Source: Rubrivivax sp. (GTDB lineage Bacteria; Pseudomonadota; Gammaproteobacteria; Burkholderiales; Burkholderiaceae_C). From it: DNA of 64,000 bases. The notes beneath the pieces are model-generated. The model searched no databases. It saw only the letters and a program-made list of their open reading frames with translations, and was not told where the DNA came from. The translations under genes and the position numbers were made by a program. The stretch spans positions 62,001-126,000 of the forward strand of contig JALHMT010000007.1 in assembly GCA_022843905.1 (NCBI GenBank), read 5' to 3'. Positions 60,553 to 64,000 of the stretch are shown here, one piece after another (position 1 is the first letter of the stretch; each line of letters begins with the position of its first letter).

Positions 60553-60987
60553 ATGACGATGAAGACCGTGTTCGCTGCCTTCTGCCTGATCGCCAGCAGT
60601 GCCGCATTCGCTCAGGCCACGCCGACCGGGGTGTGGAAGACCATCGACGACGAGACCAAGCAGGAGCGCTCGATCGTGCGCATCACCGAGGCCGGCGGCG
60701 CCCTCAGCGGCAAGATCGAGAAGCTGCTCGATCCGACCAAGCAGGACGCCAAGTGCGACAAGTGCACCGACTCGCGCAAGGACAAGCCGGTGATCGGCAT
60801 GACCATCATCGAAGGCGTGAAGAAGAACGCCGCAGATGATCACTGGGACGGCGGCACCATCCTCGACCCGAACAATGGCAAGACCTACAAGGTGCGCCTG
60901 ACGCCCAAGGACGGCGGCAAGGTGCTGGAAGTGCGCGGCTTCATCGGCCCCTTCTACCGCAACCAGATCTGGCAACGCGTCGAATGA
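60553..60987 (+). CDS. DUF2147 domain-containing exported protein
   Basis: Signal peptide MTMKTVFAAFCLIASSAAFAQA; TPTGVWKTIDDETKQERSIVRITEAGGALSGKIEKLLDP...GKTYKVRLTPKDGGKVLEVRGFIGPFYRNQIW. Confidence 0.92.
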   Translation: MTMKTVFAAFCLIASSAAFAQATPTGVWKTIDDETKQERSIVRITEAGGALSGKIEKLLDPTKQDAKCDKCTDSRKDKPVIGMTIIEGVKKNAADDHWDGGTILDPNNGKTYKVRLTPKDGGKVLEVRGFIGPFYRNQIWQRVE

Positions 60988-61001
60988 CGCCTGGAGAGAC
61001 C

Positions 61002-63401
61002 ATGAACCGATTCAATGTCCGCAAGGTCGCCGTGCTGGGCGCCGGCGTGATGGGCGCGCAGATCGCCGCGCACCTCGTCAACGTGCGAGTGCCCGTCATC
61101 CTGTTCGACCTGCCGGCCAAGGAAGGCCCGAAGAACGGCATCGTGAGCAAGGCCGTCGAAGGCCTGAAGAAGCTCAAGCCGGCGCCGCTGGGCGTGCCGG
61201 AGGAGGCCGCGCTGATCGAGCAGGCCAACTACGAGGAGCACCTGGACAGGCTGGGCGAGTGCGACCTGATCATCGAGGCCATCGCCGAGCGCATGGACTG
61301 GAAGCTCGACCTCTACCGCCGCATCGCGCCGGCGCTGGCGCCGCATGCCATCGTCGCCAGCAACACCTCGGGCCTGTCGATCACCACGCTGAGCGAAGCG
61401 CTGCCCGAGTCGATCAAGCCGCGCTTCTGCGGCATCCACTTCTTCAACCCGCCGCGCTACATGGCGCTGGTGGAGCTGATCGACACGCCGGCCACCACGC
61501 CCGAGGTGCTGGACCAGCTCGAGGCTTTCGTCACCACGGCGCTGGGCAAGGGCGTCGTGCGGGCCAAGGACACACCGAACTTCATCGCCAACCGCGTCGG
61601 CATCGCCGGCATGCTGGCGACGATCAAGGAAGCCGAGACCTTCGGGCTGGGCTACGACGTCGTCGATGACCTCACGGGCAAGAAGCTGGGGCGTGCCTCG
61701 TCAGGCACCTTCCGCACCGCCGACGTGGTGGGGCTGGACACCATGTCGCACGTCATCCGGACGCTGCAGGACAACCTGGGCGAAGGCAAGCGCATTGCCG
61801 ACCCGTTCGCGCCGATGTACGCCACGCCGCCGGTGCTGGGGCGCCTGATCGAGCAGGGCGCGCTGGGGCAGAAGAGTGGCGCCGGCTTCTACAAGAAGGT
61901 CGGCAAGGACATCCTGCGGCTCGACCCCGCCAAGGGCGACTACGTGCCGGCCGGCGGCAAGGCCGAGCCCTTGATCGATCGCATGCTGAAGAAGGCACCG
62001 GCCGAGCGGCTGAAGCTGCTGCGCGAGTCGAGCAACCCGCAGGCCCAGTTCCTGTGGGCCATTCTGCGCGACGGCTTCCACTACGCCGCCGTGCACCTGG
62101 CCGACATCGCCGAGAGCGCGCGCGACATCGACTTCGCGATGCGCTGGGGCTTCGGGGTGAAGCAGGGCCCCTTCGAGCTGTGGCAGGCGGCCGGCTGGCA
62201 GCAGGTGGCCGAGTGGGTGAAGGCCGACATCGACGCCGGCAAGGCCTTGAGCAGCGCACCCCTGCCGGCCTGGGTCTTCGATGGCCGCAGTGGCGTGCAC
62301 ACGCCCGAAGGTTCGTGGAGCCCGGCGAAGAACGCCTACATCCCCAGGCGCACGCTGCCGGTCTACCAGCGCCAGCACTTCCCCGAGGACGTGATCGGTG
62401 CGGGCGGTGTCGAGCCGCTGAAGAGCGGAACCGAGGTCTTCTCCAATGAGGAAGTGCGCGTCTGGACGCTGGACGGCGAGGTGCTCATCGCCAGCATCAC
62501 CGCCAAGCTGCACCTCATCAGCCCGACCGTGGCCGAGGGCCTGCAGGTGGCGCTGGACCGCGCCGAGGCCGGCTACAAGGGCCTGGTGATCTGGTCGCCC
62601 GACGACGTGTTCTCGGCCGGTGCGAACCTCGAGGCACTGATGCCGGTGTTCATGAAGAGCGGCGCCAAGGGCATCGCGCCCGAGCTGAAGAAGTTCCAGG
62701 ACTTCATGCTGCGCCTGCGCTACGCGCAGGTCCCGGTGATCAGCGCCGTCCGCGGCATCGCCCTGGGCGGCGGCTGCGAACTGGCGGTGTACTCCAGCCG
62801 GCGCGTGGCAGCGATGGAGTCGTACATGGGCCTGGTCGAGGTCGGCGTGGGCCTGGTGCCCGGCGCGGGCGGGCTGACCTACATCGCGCGCCGTGCCGCC
62901 GAAATGGCGTCGGCTGCCAATGCGGGCGCCGACATCCTGAAGTTCGTCACCGACGGCTTCACGAACGCAGCCATGGCCAAGGTGGGCACCAGCGCCATCG
63001 AATCGCGCAAGCTCGGCTACCTGCTGTGGAGCGACGTCATCGTGCCGCACAAGGACGAACTGCTCTTCGTCGCCACGCAGCAGGCCAGGGCGATGTTCGA
63101 CAGCGGCTACCGCCCGCCGGCCAGGACACCCTTCCCGGTGGCCGGCCGCAGCGCCATCGCCACCATCAAGGGGCAGCTGGCCAACATGCGGGATGGCGGC
63201 TTCATCAGCGCGCACGACTTTCACATCAGCGCCCTGATCGCCGATGTGGTGTGCGGGGGCGAAGTGGATGCCGGCTCGCTGGTGACGGAGGAGTACCTGA
63301 TGGCGCTGGAGCGCAAGCACTTCTGTTCGCTGCTGGAGAACCCCAAGAGCCAGGAACGCATCATGGGCATGCTGCAGACGGGCAAGCCTGTGAGGAACTG
63401 A
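61002..63401 (+). CDS. 3-hydroxyacyl-CoA dehydrogenase/enoyl-CoA hydratase (HAD N-terminal, crotonase C-terminal; FadN-like domain order)
   Basis: VRKVAVLGAGVMGAQIAAHLVNVRVPVILFDL...GIHFFNPPRYMALVELIDTP...GLVIWSPDDVFSAGANLEALMPVF...RGIALGGGCELAVYSSRRVAAMESYMGLVEVGVGLVPGAGG. Confidence 0.95.
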   Translation: MNRFNVRKVAVLGAGVMGAQIAAHLVNVRVPVILFDLPAKEGPKNGIVSKAVEGLKKLKPAPLGVPEEAALIEQANYEEHLDRLGECDLIIEAIAERMDWKLDLYRRIAPALAPHAIVASNTSGLSITTLSEALPESIKPRFCGIHFFNPPRYMALVELIDTPATTPEVLDQLEAFVTTALGKGVVRAKDTPNFIANRVGIAGMLATIKEAETFGLGYDVVDDLTGKKLGRASSGTFRTADVVGLDTMSHVIRTLQDNLGEGKRIADPFAPMYATPPVLGRLIEQGALGQKSGAGFYKKVGKDILRLDPAKGDYVPAGGKAEPLIDRMLKKAPAERLKLLRESSNPQAQFLWAILRDGFHYAAVHLADIAESARDIDFAMRWGFGVKQGPFELWQAAGWQQVAEWVKADIDAGKALSSAPLPAWVFDGRSGVHTPEGSWSPAKNAYIPRRTLPVYQRQHFPEDVIGAGGVEPLKSGTEVFSNEEVRVWTLDGEVLIASITAKLHLISPTVAEGLQVALDRAEAGYKGLVIWSPDDVFSAGANLEALMPVFMKSGAKGIAPELKKFQDFMLRLRYAQVPVISAVRGIALGGGCELAVYSSRRVAAMESYMGLVEVGVGLVPGAGGLTYIARRAAEMASAANAGADILKFVTDGFTNAAMAKVGTSAIESRKLGYLLWSDVIVPHKDELLFVATQQARAMFDSGYRPPARTPFPVAGRSAIATIKGQLANMRDGGFISAHDFHISALIADVVCGGEVDAGSLVTEEYLMALERKHFCSLLENPKSQERIMGMLQTGKPVRN

Positions 63402-63432
63402 CACATGGCGCTGTCGCTGCCCCCGCGTTCCT

Positions 63433-63468
63433 CCCTCTCCCGCTTGCGGGAGAGGGCTGGGGTGAGGG
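63433..63468 (-). repeat. REP-like 36-nt palindromic unit, left copy
   Basis: CCCTCTCCCGC-TT-GCGGGAGAGGG (perfect 11-bp stem) followed by CTGGGGTGAGGG; reverse complement differs from the right copy at 2 of 36 positions. Confidence 0.9.
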
Positions 63469-63854
63469 CTGGTGAACTTCGCCGCAACTCGACCGACGCA
63501 GAGAGCGTCCTTTGGCGTCATCTGCGCAATCGCCAGCTCGAAGGATTCAAGTTCCGCCGACAACACCCGATCGGGCCGTTCTTTGCCGACTTTGCCTGCA
63601 TCGAAGCAGGGCTGGTGATCGAACTCGACGGCGGGCAGCACTTCGAGCCGCAGGCTCAGGTGGCCGATCAGGAGCGTTCCAGGCGCATCAGCGCAGAAGG
63701 GTTCGCGGTCATGCGCTTCGACAATCGTCAGTTGCTGCAAGAGACAGAAGCGGTCCTGCACGCCATCAGAGCCCGGCTGCTGAGTCGACACCCTCACCCC
63801 AACCCTCTCCCGCAGGCGGGAGAGGGGGTTACATCCACAAGGAGCTCGACATGA
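63462..63854 (+). CDS. DUF559 (Vsr-like, PD-(D/E)XK) endonuclease domain protein
   Basis: ELRRNSTDAESVLWRHLRNRQLEGFKFRRQHPIGPFFADFACIEAGLVIELDGGQHFEPQAQVADQERSRRISAEGFAVMRFDNRQLLQETEAVLHAI; ORF runs from 63405 (ATG) or possible GTG 63462; reads through both REP units; stop overlaps the next ATG. Confidence 0.9.
   Translation: MRAGELRRNSTDAESVLWRHLRNRQLEGFKFRRQHPIGPFFADFACIEAGLVIELDGGQHFEPQAQVADQERSRRISAEGFAVMRFDNRQLLQETEAVLHAIRARLLSRHPHPNPLPQAGEGVTSTRSST
63791..63826 (+). repeat. REP-like 36-nt palindromic unit, right copy (inverted relative to left)
   Basis: CCCTCACCCCAA-CCCTCTCCCGC-AG-GCGGGAGAGGG. Confidence 0.9.
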
Positions 63855-64000
63855 GCAAGCAAGTTCAAGACGCCTACATCGTCGCCGCCACGCGCACGCC
63901 CATCGGCAAGTCCGGGCGCGGCTACTTCCGCAACACGCGGCCCGACGACCTGCTGGTGGCGGCCGTGAAGAGCGCGCTGGCGCAGGTGCCCTCGCTCGAC
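63851..64000 (+). CDS. fadA: Acetyl-CoA C-acyltransferase, N-terminal part (3' truncated by window edge)
   Basis: MSKQVQDAYIVAATRTPIGKSGRGYFRNTRPDDLLVAAVKSALAQVPSLD: thiolase N-terminus. Confidence 0.93.
   Translation, partial: MSKQVQDAYIVAATRTPIGKSGRGYFRNTRPDDLLVAAVKSALAQVPSLD

Follow-up and report, generated by a model that had tools for sequence, protein, structure and literature searches.

Inverted intrastrand-triplex motifs flanking a DUF559 nuclease gene as a candidate bacterial mobile element

Introduction

Repeats predicted to form intrastrand triplexes, known as TM_ECO and earlier as PIT (Hoyne et al., cited there), with BoxC mentioned beside them, were treated by Holder et al. 2015 (PMC4666352). 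Each consists of a purine-motif hairpin and a mirrored third strand; they are intergenic, sometimes lie in inverted pairs and occur in many genomes. Catalogues of them span hundreds of bacterial genomes, and they have been linked to instability of the genome. E. coli K-12 has 23 copies, and cyanobacteria and Neisseria are rich in them. Triplex formation by the E. coli motif was observed in vitro by NMR and CD, and was not seen in double-stranded DNA nor by footprinting in cells. No mobility functions were found around the repeats, and earlier work, as stated in the same paper, had found no promoter or terminator activity (PMC4666352). In the open-access literature that we searched, no partner gene is reported for them.

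A second point of comparison is the REPIN-RAYT (TnpA_REP) system, in which short inverted palindromes are accompanied by a single-domain nuclease gene that is flanked by, and clade-matched to, the same palindromes (PMC3116915, PMC8266576); GTAG or CGTC tags at such palindromes are named in PMC3733652. A third is the protein family DUF559 (PF04480), which includes NGO0050 of N. gonorrhoeae (structure 3hrl) and YcjD of E. coli (PMC1189080), the latter with no function or mobility assigned to it. Another DUF559 protein, Caulobacter VsrA, has been linked to DNA damage in cells without cytosine methylase (PMC12907096), so at least one member is likely to be an active nuclease.

The locus described here combines features of all three. 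Whereas no mobility gene accompanies the known triplex repeats, a DUF559 gene lies inside the inverted pair, in an arrangement that recurs across phyla with repeat and gene matched in type. In contrast to REPIN-RAYT systems, the predicted nuclease is of the PD-(D/E)XK rather than the HUH Y1 kind, the ends are triplex motifs, and the gene-bearing copy itself can occupy several places in one genome.

Results

The locus lies in a 64,000-nucleotide stretch of DNA, referred to here as the window, and its parts are listed in Table 1. Two 36-nt repeat units stand in inverted orientation with 322 nt between their arms; they are complementary at 34 of 36 positions (94%), and each has a perfect 11-bp stem, CCCTCTCCCGC/GCGGGAGAGGG, just as a preliminary description of this DNA had claimed. 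Its assignment of the enclosed reading frame to DUF559 was borne out by a profile search (PF04480, 121.7 bits against a curated cut-off of 20.6, E 1.6e-35), and its placement of the locus in a beta-oxidation operon agrees with the fadB-like gene to the left and the thiolase start to the right. The coding extent calls for revision. The reading frame from the ATG at 63405 is present as described, but the likelier protein start, judged from the sequence, is an in-frame GTG at 63462 within the arm of the left repeat, so most of that repeat would be 5′ untranslated rather than coding. The stem's GGGAGAGG (63446–63464 region, with the arm GTG) is a possible ribosome site for the gene, and the repeat may supply its translation start. 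At the other end, the DUF559 TGA stop (63852–63854) overlaps the thiolase ATG in the sequence ATGA (63851–63854), an overlap that may couple translation across the inserted element.

Table 1. Features of the DUF559 locus, in window coordinates
Feature	Position	Strand	Basis
fadB-like 3-hydroxyacyl-CoA dehydrogenase/enoyl-CoA hydratase, left host gene	60984–63401	+	ORF and profile
DUF559 longest ORF, from ATG 63405	63405–63854	+	ORF
Proposed mobile unit, 394 bp at its minimum, from one hairpin to the other	63433–63826	+	Inferred from homologous copies and empty junctions; putative ends
Left triplex repeat, whole	63433–63468	+	Strict triplex finder, 9/9 triads (locus L016)
Left repeat hairpin, CCCTCTCCCGC-TT-GCGGGAGAGGG	63433–63456	+	Sequence
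Left repeat turn, CTG	63457–63459	+	Sequence
Left repeat third strand, GGGTGAGGG	63460–63468	+	Arm towards gene
DUF559 (PF04480) Vsr-like PD-(D/E)XK nuclease gene, activity predicted	63462–63854	+	Profile, alignment, model and fold matches
DUF559 core	about 63462–63779	+	Within DUF559 gene
Right triplex repeat, inverted copy	63791–63826	-	Strict triplex finder, 9/9 triads
Right repeat third strand, complement CCCTCACCC	63791–63799	-	Followed by turn
Right repeat hairpin, CCCTCTCCCGC-AG-GCGGGAGAGGG	63803–63826	-	Sequence
fadA-like thiolase start, right host gene, runs off window	63851–64000	+	Thiolase_N (weak, truncated); junction alignments

The protein was compared across 117 DUF559 loci. A similarity search with the window protein supplied 26 of them from named genome contigs; the others are the window copy itself and the strongest stand-alone hits in 300 genomes of the order. 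Internal stops are absent from 113 of the 117 cores, and 18 of 20 pairs have a dN/dS below 0.35; on these comparisons the protein is under purifying selection. The putative catalytic residues noted in the preliminary description are kept, the candidate active-site motif E-x-D-G-x-x-H being present in 115/117 cores and invariant in alignment A2; the invariant residues are E14, W18, F44, E54, D56, G57, H60, D69, R72 and R85. An AlphaFold model (pLDDT 86) matches 3hrl with an E-value of 5.8e-8 and, next closest, the catalytic domain of the homing endonuclease I-Bth0305I (3r3p; E 4e-4), with a weaker match to Vsr (1cw0; probability 0.98 but E 0.1). The model thus places the protein in the Vsr-like PD-(D/E)XK fold, with nuclease activity as a prediction. 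Unlike I-Bth0305I and Vsr, to which the likeness is one of modeled catalytic fold, the window gene stands outside an intron, with no conserved gene target and no mismatch-repair context, and is flanked by triplex repeats. Nor does it have the setting of a homing endonuclease gene (an intron, an intein or a conserved gene target), since its family is found at varied intergenic places.

When hairpin types were compared across loci, the arm, which typically comes after a short turn, was found to mirror the purine strand of the stem, G to G and A to A or T. The stem/arm types include GGGAGAGGG/GGGTGAGGG, GGGGGAAGG/GGATGGGGG, AAAGGGGGG/GGGGGGATTT and GGGAGAAGGG/GGGATGAGGG. These correspondences are the triads permitted in an antiparallel purine-motif triplex. 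Among asymmetric stems, a perfect mirror arm was found with its own stem in 51% of cases, compared with 4% for other stems, 6% for the direct orientation and 1% for shuffled arms; the asymmetric types rule out duplex pairing of the arm, which would require a direct, non-mirror relation to the stem. A hairpin counted as a triplex motif (class II, TM/PIT) when the third strand behind it mirrored it in the purine motif over 8 triads or more; both window ends show 9 of 9. By sequence, then, the window repeats are triplex-code motifs, and they may fold as such in the cell.

The stem occurs at 18 places in the 7.43-Mb genome from which the window comes. Counting stem and arm together gives about 28 units, most of which belong to inverted pairs (about 13), against 0 for a reversed-pattern control, so the arrangement is not due to chance. 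Hairpins lie outside and arms inside in about 11 of the pairs, as they do around the gene. Apart from the window copy, which alone is long and holds the genome's only DUF559 gene, the pairs are short. As two short palindromes, inverted and repeated in the genome, the pairs resemble REPINs. The RAYT side of the comparison fails: no HUH Y1 transposase (Y1_Tnp, PF01797) was detected in this genome, the element's gene being DUF559, and neither a GTAG nor a CGTC tag is present in the window unit. Because the HUH nuclease and the tag are absent, the element would work like a REPIN with its RAYT without being a member of that group.

Pairs that lack the gene were sought in the same 300 genomes with three exact patterns derived from DUF559-flanking motifs, some source loci of the second and third patterns lying in the sampled genomes. 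DUF559 was present in 17 of the 18 genomes with gene-less pairs against a background of 129/300 (P = 3.5e-6, on small counts) and, by genus, in 13 of 14 pair-bearing genera against 71/135 (P = 0.001, genera not being independent); the exception, G293, has gene-less pairs and no detected DUF559. What lies between the two ends of a gene-less pair shares no homology with the gene-bearing element, which means that these pairs are not simple deletion derivatives of it. Y1_Tnp was not significantly enriched (14/18 pair-bearing genomes versus 180/300, P = 0.09), and none was detected in the pair-bearing genomes G171, G219 and G118. RAYT involvement is ruled out for the window's own genome and unsupported across the order.

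At the 117 DUF559 loci, a flank-to-flank inverted pair scoring at least 16 was found in 83 (71%), compared with 6 of 1170 control places in the same loci (0.5%). An inward-pointing strict triplex motif was present at 84 loci (72%) versus 11/585 control places (1.9%), and strict motifs stood at both ends in 40 loci versus 1/585; at 33 of the 117 the strict motif was not found. The loci sampled include Chloroflexi, Kapabacteria, KSB1, Desulfobacterales, Sphingomonads and Rhizobium, with the arrangement of variable clarity, and kindred arrangements were recognized by eye on plasmids of Cyanobacteria (a pure-G type) and Deinococcota (arms outward). Two faecal phage scaffolds carry DUF559 with hairpins and no clear triplex motif; in one of them the gene lies between a pair of AGCTCCCCC hairpins without a third-strand arm.

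Between host families, motif type tracks the DUF559 sequence. Protein identity and motif distance were correlated with a Mantel r of -0.457, whereas 2000 permutations gave a standard deviation of 0.047 and a minimum of -0.165. The same matching is seen within genomes. G062 has three DUF559 paralogues, no two with the same motif type, and each motif resembles the one carried by the closest relative of its gene in another family; the two paralogues of G295 and the two of G182 likewise differ in motif and match their nearest relatives in other families. Neither host phylogeny nor base composition readily accounts for such matching of gene and motif inside a single genome.

Signs of movement were found in several lineages. 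The complete genome G217 has three full copies that are 95–99.7% identical over about 592 bp and have unrelated flanks. A further copy carries an internal deletion, some hairpins occur alone with these same outer ends, and about 100 matches to the repeat were found. Outer modules, putative parts of the element, extend about 30–36 bp beyond the hairpins and are shared by the solo copies. Four species of this genus differ at one locus: the element is present in G217 and G277, a solo motif in G360 and nothing in G359; a joined-flank search in the genus gave no base-exact junction, and presence or absence is scored at the level of the locus. In two Deinococcus species the element sits in the same operon at different junctions: one has it between an NAD(P) oxidoreductase gene and hpaE, the second between hpaB and the oxidoreductase gene. 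Each junction is without the element in the other of the two species, and the DNA homology of the element spans motif end to motif end. At the window's own site, the fadB-fadA junction is empty (8–27 nt) in 13 of 30 genera, which rules out a vertical, static arrangement; it is filled by a DUF559 element with one of two motif types in five genera (the window's included) and by a gene-less pair in one. The two motif types suggest at least two insertions at this junction. At the fadB-fadA, G217-genus and Deinococcus junctions we found no target-site duplication or target consensus, and no close empty site that resolves the target.

E. coli populations were considered for testing whether movement is recent, and were rejected for this purpose. 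There ycjD is present once, as a long-standing resident whose ends have decayed, with triplex-motif remnants beside the gene. With only this one ancient locus, and with a different insert behind sapF in some strains, no clean empty site was obtained. In some strains (L213–L215) ycjD is absent and an efflux gene cluster is found downstream of sapF instead.

Discussion

The association, the matching of motif to clade, the movement of gene and ends together, the empty sites and the purifying selection form the sequence basis for regarding the nuclease and its two repeats as one evolutionary and mobile unit, and we hold this with high confidence. The fuller explanation, in which DUF559 acts on the repeats as its own ends, is the one we favor, with moderate confidence. 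The window would then hold the gene-bearing member of a small mobile-element family whose ends are inverted intrastrand-triplex hairpins and whose only gene encodes a DUF559 Vsr-like PD-(D/E)XK nuclease, and the shorter gene-less pairs elsewhere in the genome would be its non-autonomous relatives, comparable to REPINs. In the mechanism we envisage, replication or transcription would expose the G-rich strand of an end as a single strand, and the hairpin and arm would fold into a triplex. The cognate DUF559 protein would recognize this shape and nick at it, and from that nick the unit would be copied or moved to a new intergenic location. We infer three parts of this scheme: that the triplex folds in the cell, that DUF559 recognizes and cleaves it, and how the unit is inserted.

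The preliminary description had proposed one mobile unit resembling a REPIN plus RAYT, with a Vsr-like nuclease in place of the usual one. None of the three conditions that it had named as refuting came true: the repeat recurs in the genome, its association with DUF559 is strong across phyla, and the fadB-fadA junctions of many relatives are empty. The joint movement of gene and repeats also speaks for that proposal, which is partly supported: action of the nuclease on the repeats is putative, and the ends are not mere palindromes, the arm being a candidate triplex third strand. Its suggestion that the system was undescribed holds for the nuclease partner, which is new as far as the open-access papers searched go, and not for the repeat class, which is known (PMC4666352).

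A homing-like route of spread is unlikely, yet of the alternatives it survives best. DUF559 would cut DNA where a motif or an intergenic target already exists, or close by, and break repair would copy the element in, the motifs serving as target and recombination sites rather than as transposon ends. The fold, nearest after 3hrl to that of I-Bth0305I, fits such a route, as do the graded series of element, solo motif and nothing at one locus in the genus of G217 and the recurrence of different element types at the fadB-fadA junction. Against this, the insertions are intergenic and at unrelated places rather than at one conserved gene site, the multiplication of gene-less pairs would still need a reason, and the agreement of motif type with nuclease clade is what element ends should show. 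As to route, the data are compatible both with transposition from a structure-specific nick and with homing-like copying.

It is improbable that DUF559 is a static host gene, a repair or defence nuclease around which the motifs act as terminators or insulators. The action of VsrA on DNA in Caulobacter (PMC12907096) would suit a host function, and so would the proximity of some DUF559 genes to methylase or BREX genes on cyanobacterial plasmids. However, the motif is widely present without the gene, gene and motifs relocate together, related genomes have empty sites, the motif types are clade-specific where terminators need not be, and promoter or terminator activity is reported to be lacking (PMC4666352).

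A further alternative, compatible with mobility, concerns the fold only: the functional structure could be a G-quadruplex of the G-rich strand GGGAGAGGGCTGGGGTGAGGG, with the mirror a by-product of equal G-tracts. The window's repeat type does have four G3 tracts, but the types GGGGGAAGG/GGGATGGGGG, AAAGGGGGG/GGGGGGATTT and GGGAGAAGGG/GGGGATGAGGG keep mirrored A positions without four equal tracts, and NMR and CD of the E. coli motif favor the triplex (PMC4666352), so that we give the quadruplex little credence. Least probable of all is that a Y1/RAYT-type or other transposase encoded elsewhere moves the palindromes with DUF559 as frequent cargo: Y1_Tnp is common in the order and REPs elsewhere are ascribed to RAYTs (PMC3116915, PMC8266576), but four pair-bearing genomes, the window's among them, have no detected Y1_Tnp, the domain is not significantly enriched where pairs occur, and the DUF559 clade predicts the motif type.

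A widespread bacterial repeat class of unexplained origin probably owes its spread to DUF559 as the partner that had been missing. More tentatively, and at somewhat less than an even chance, we suggest that these loci represent a previously unrecognized class of mobile element, spread over Proteobacteria, Cyanobacteria, Deinococcota and other phyla. A cognate single-domain PD-(D/E)XK nuclease would recognize the ends of such an element as three-stranded DNA, and the dispersed triplex repeats of bacteria would derive from this class. The triplex repeats gain a concrete partner of matching specificity in a conserved nuclease family of unknown function, and their origin becomes testable in E. coli K-12, where ycjD and the 23 copies are present together. 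If the proposal is true, a large DUF family would gain a role, and a different nuclease fold together with triplex recognition would underlie a transposon-like system.

Several minor observations concern individual loci. In G217, solo repeats of about 100 nt (L217, L218) consist of one hairpin plus the outer modules of the DUF559 element, as if the two hairpins had recombined, by analogy with solo LTRs. Four motif pairs of the GGGATGGGGG type lie in tandem, about 233 nt apart, at G157:C142:15877–16614. On the Deinococcus plasmids (L258, L262, L263), where the arms point outward, there are further outer inverted repeats that differ between copies, for example GGGCCAGCGTTGCTG in L262. DUF559 adjoins BREX PglX or DUF1156 genes on the cyanobacterial plasmids L256, L260 and L261. 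Two DUF559 copies of one Sphingomonas genome (L023, L028) are found at contig ends, as expected of repeats that break assemblies.
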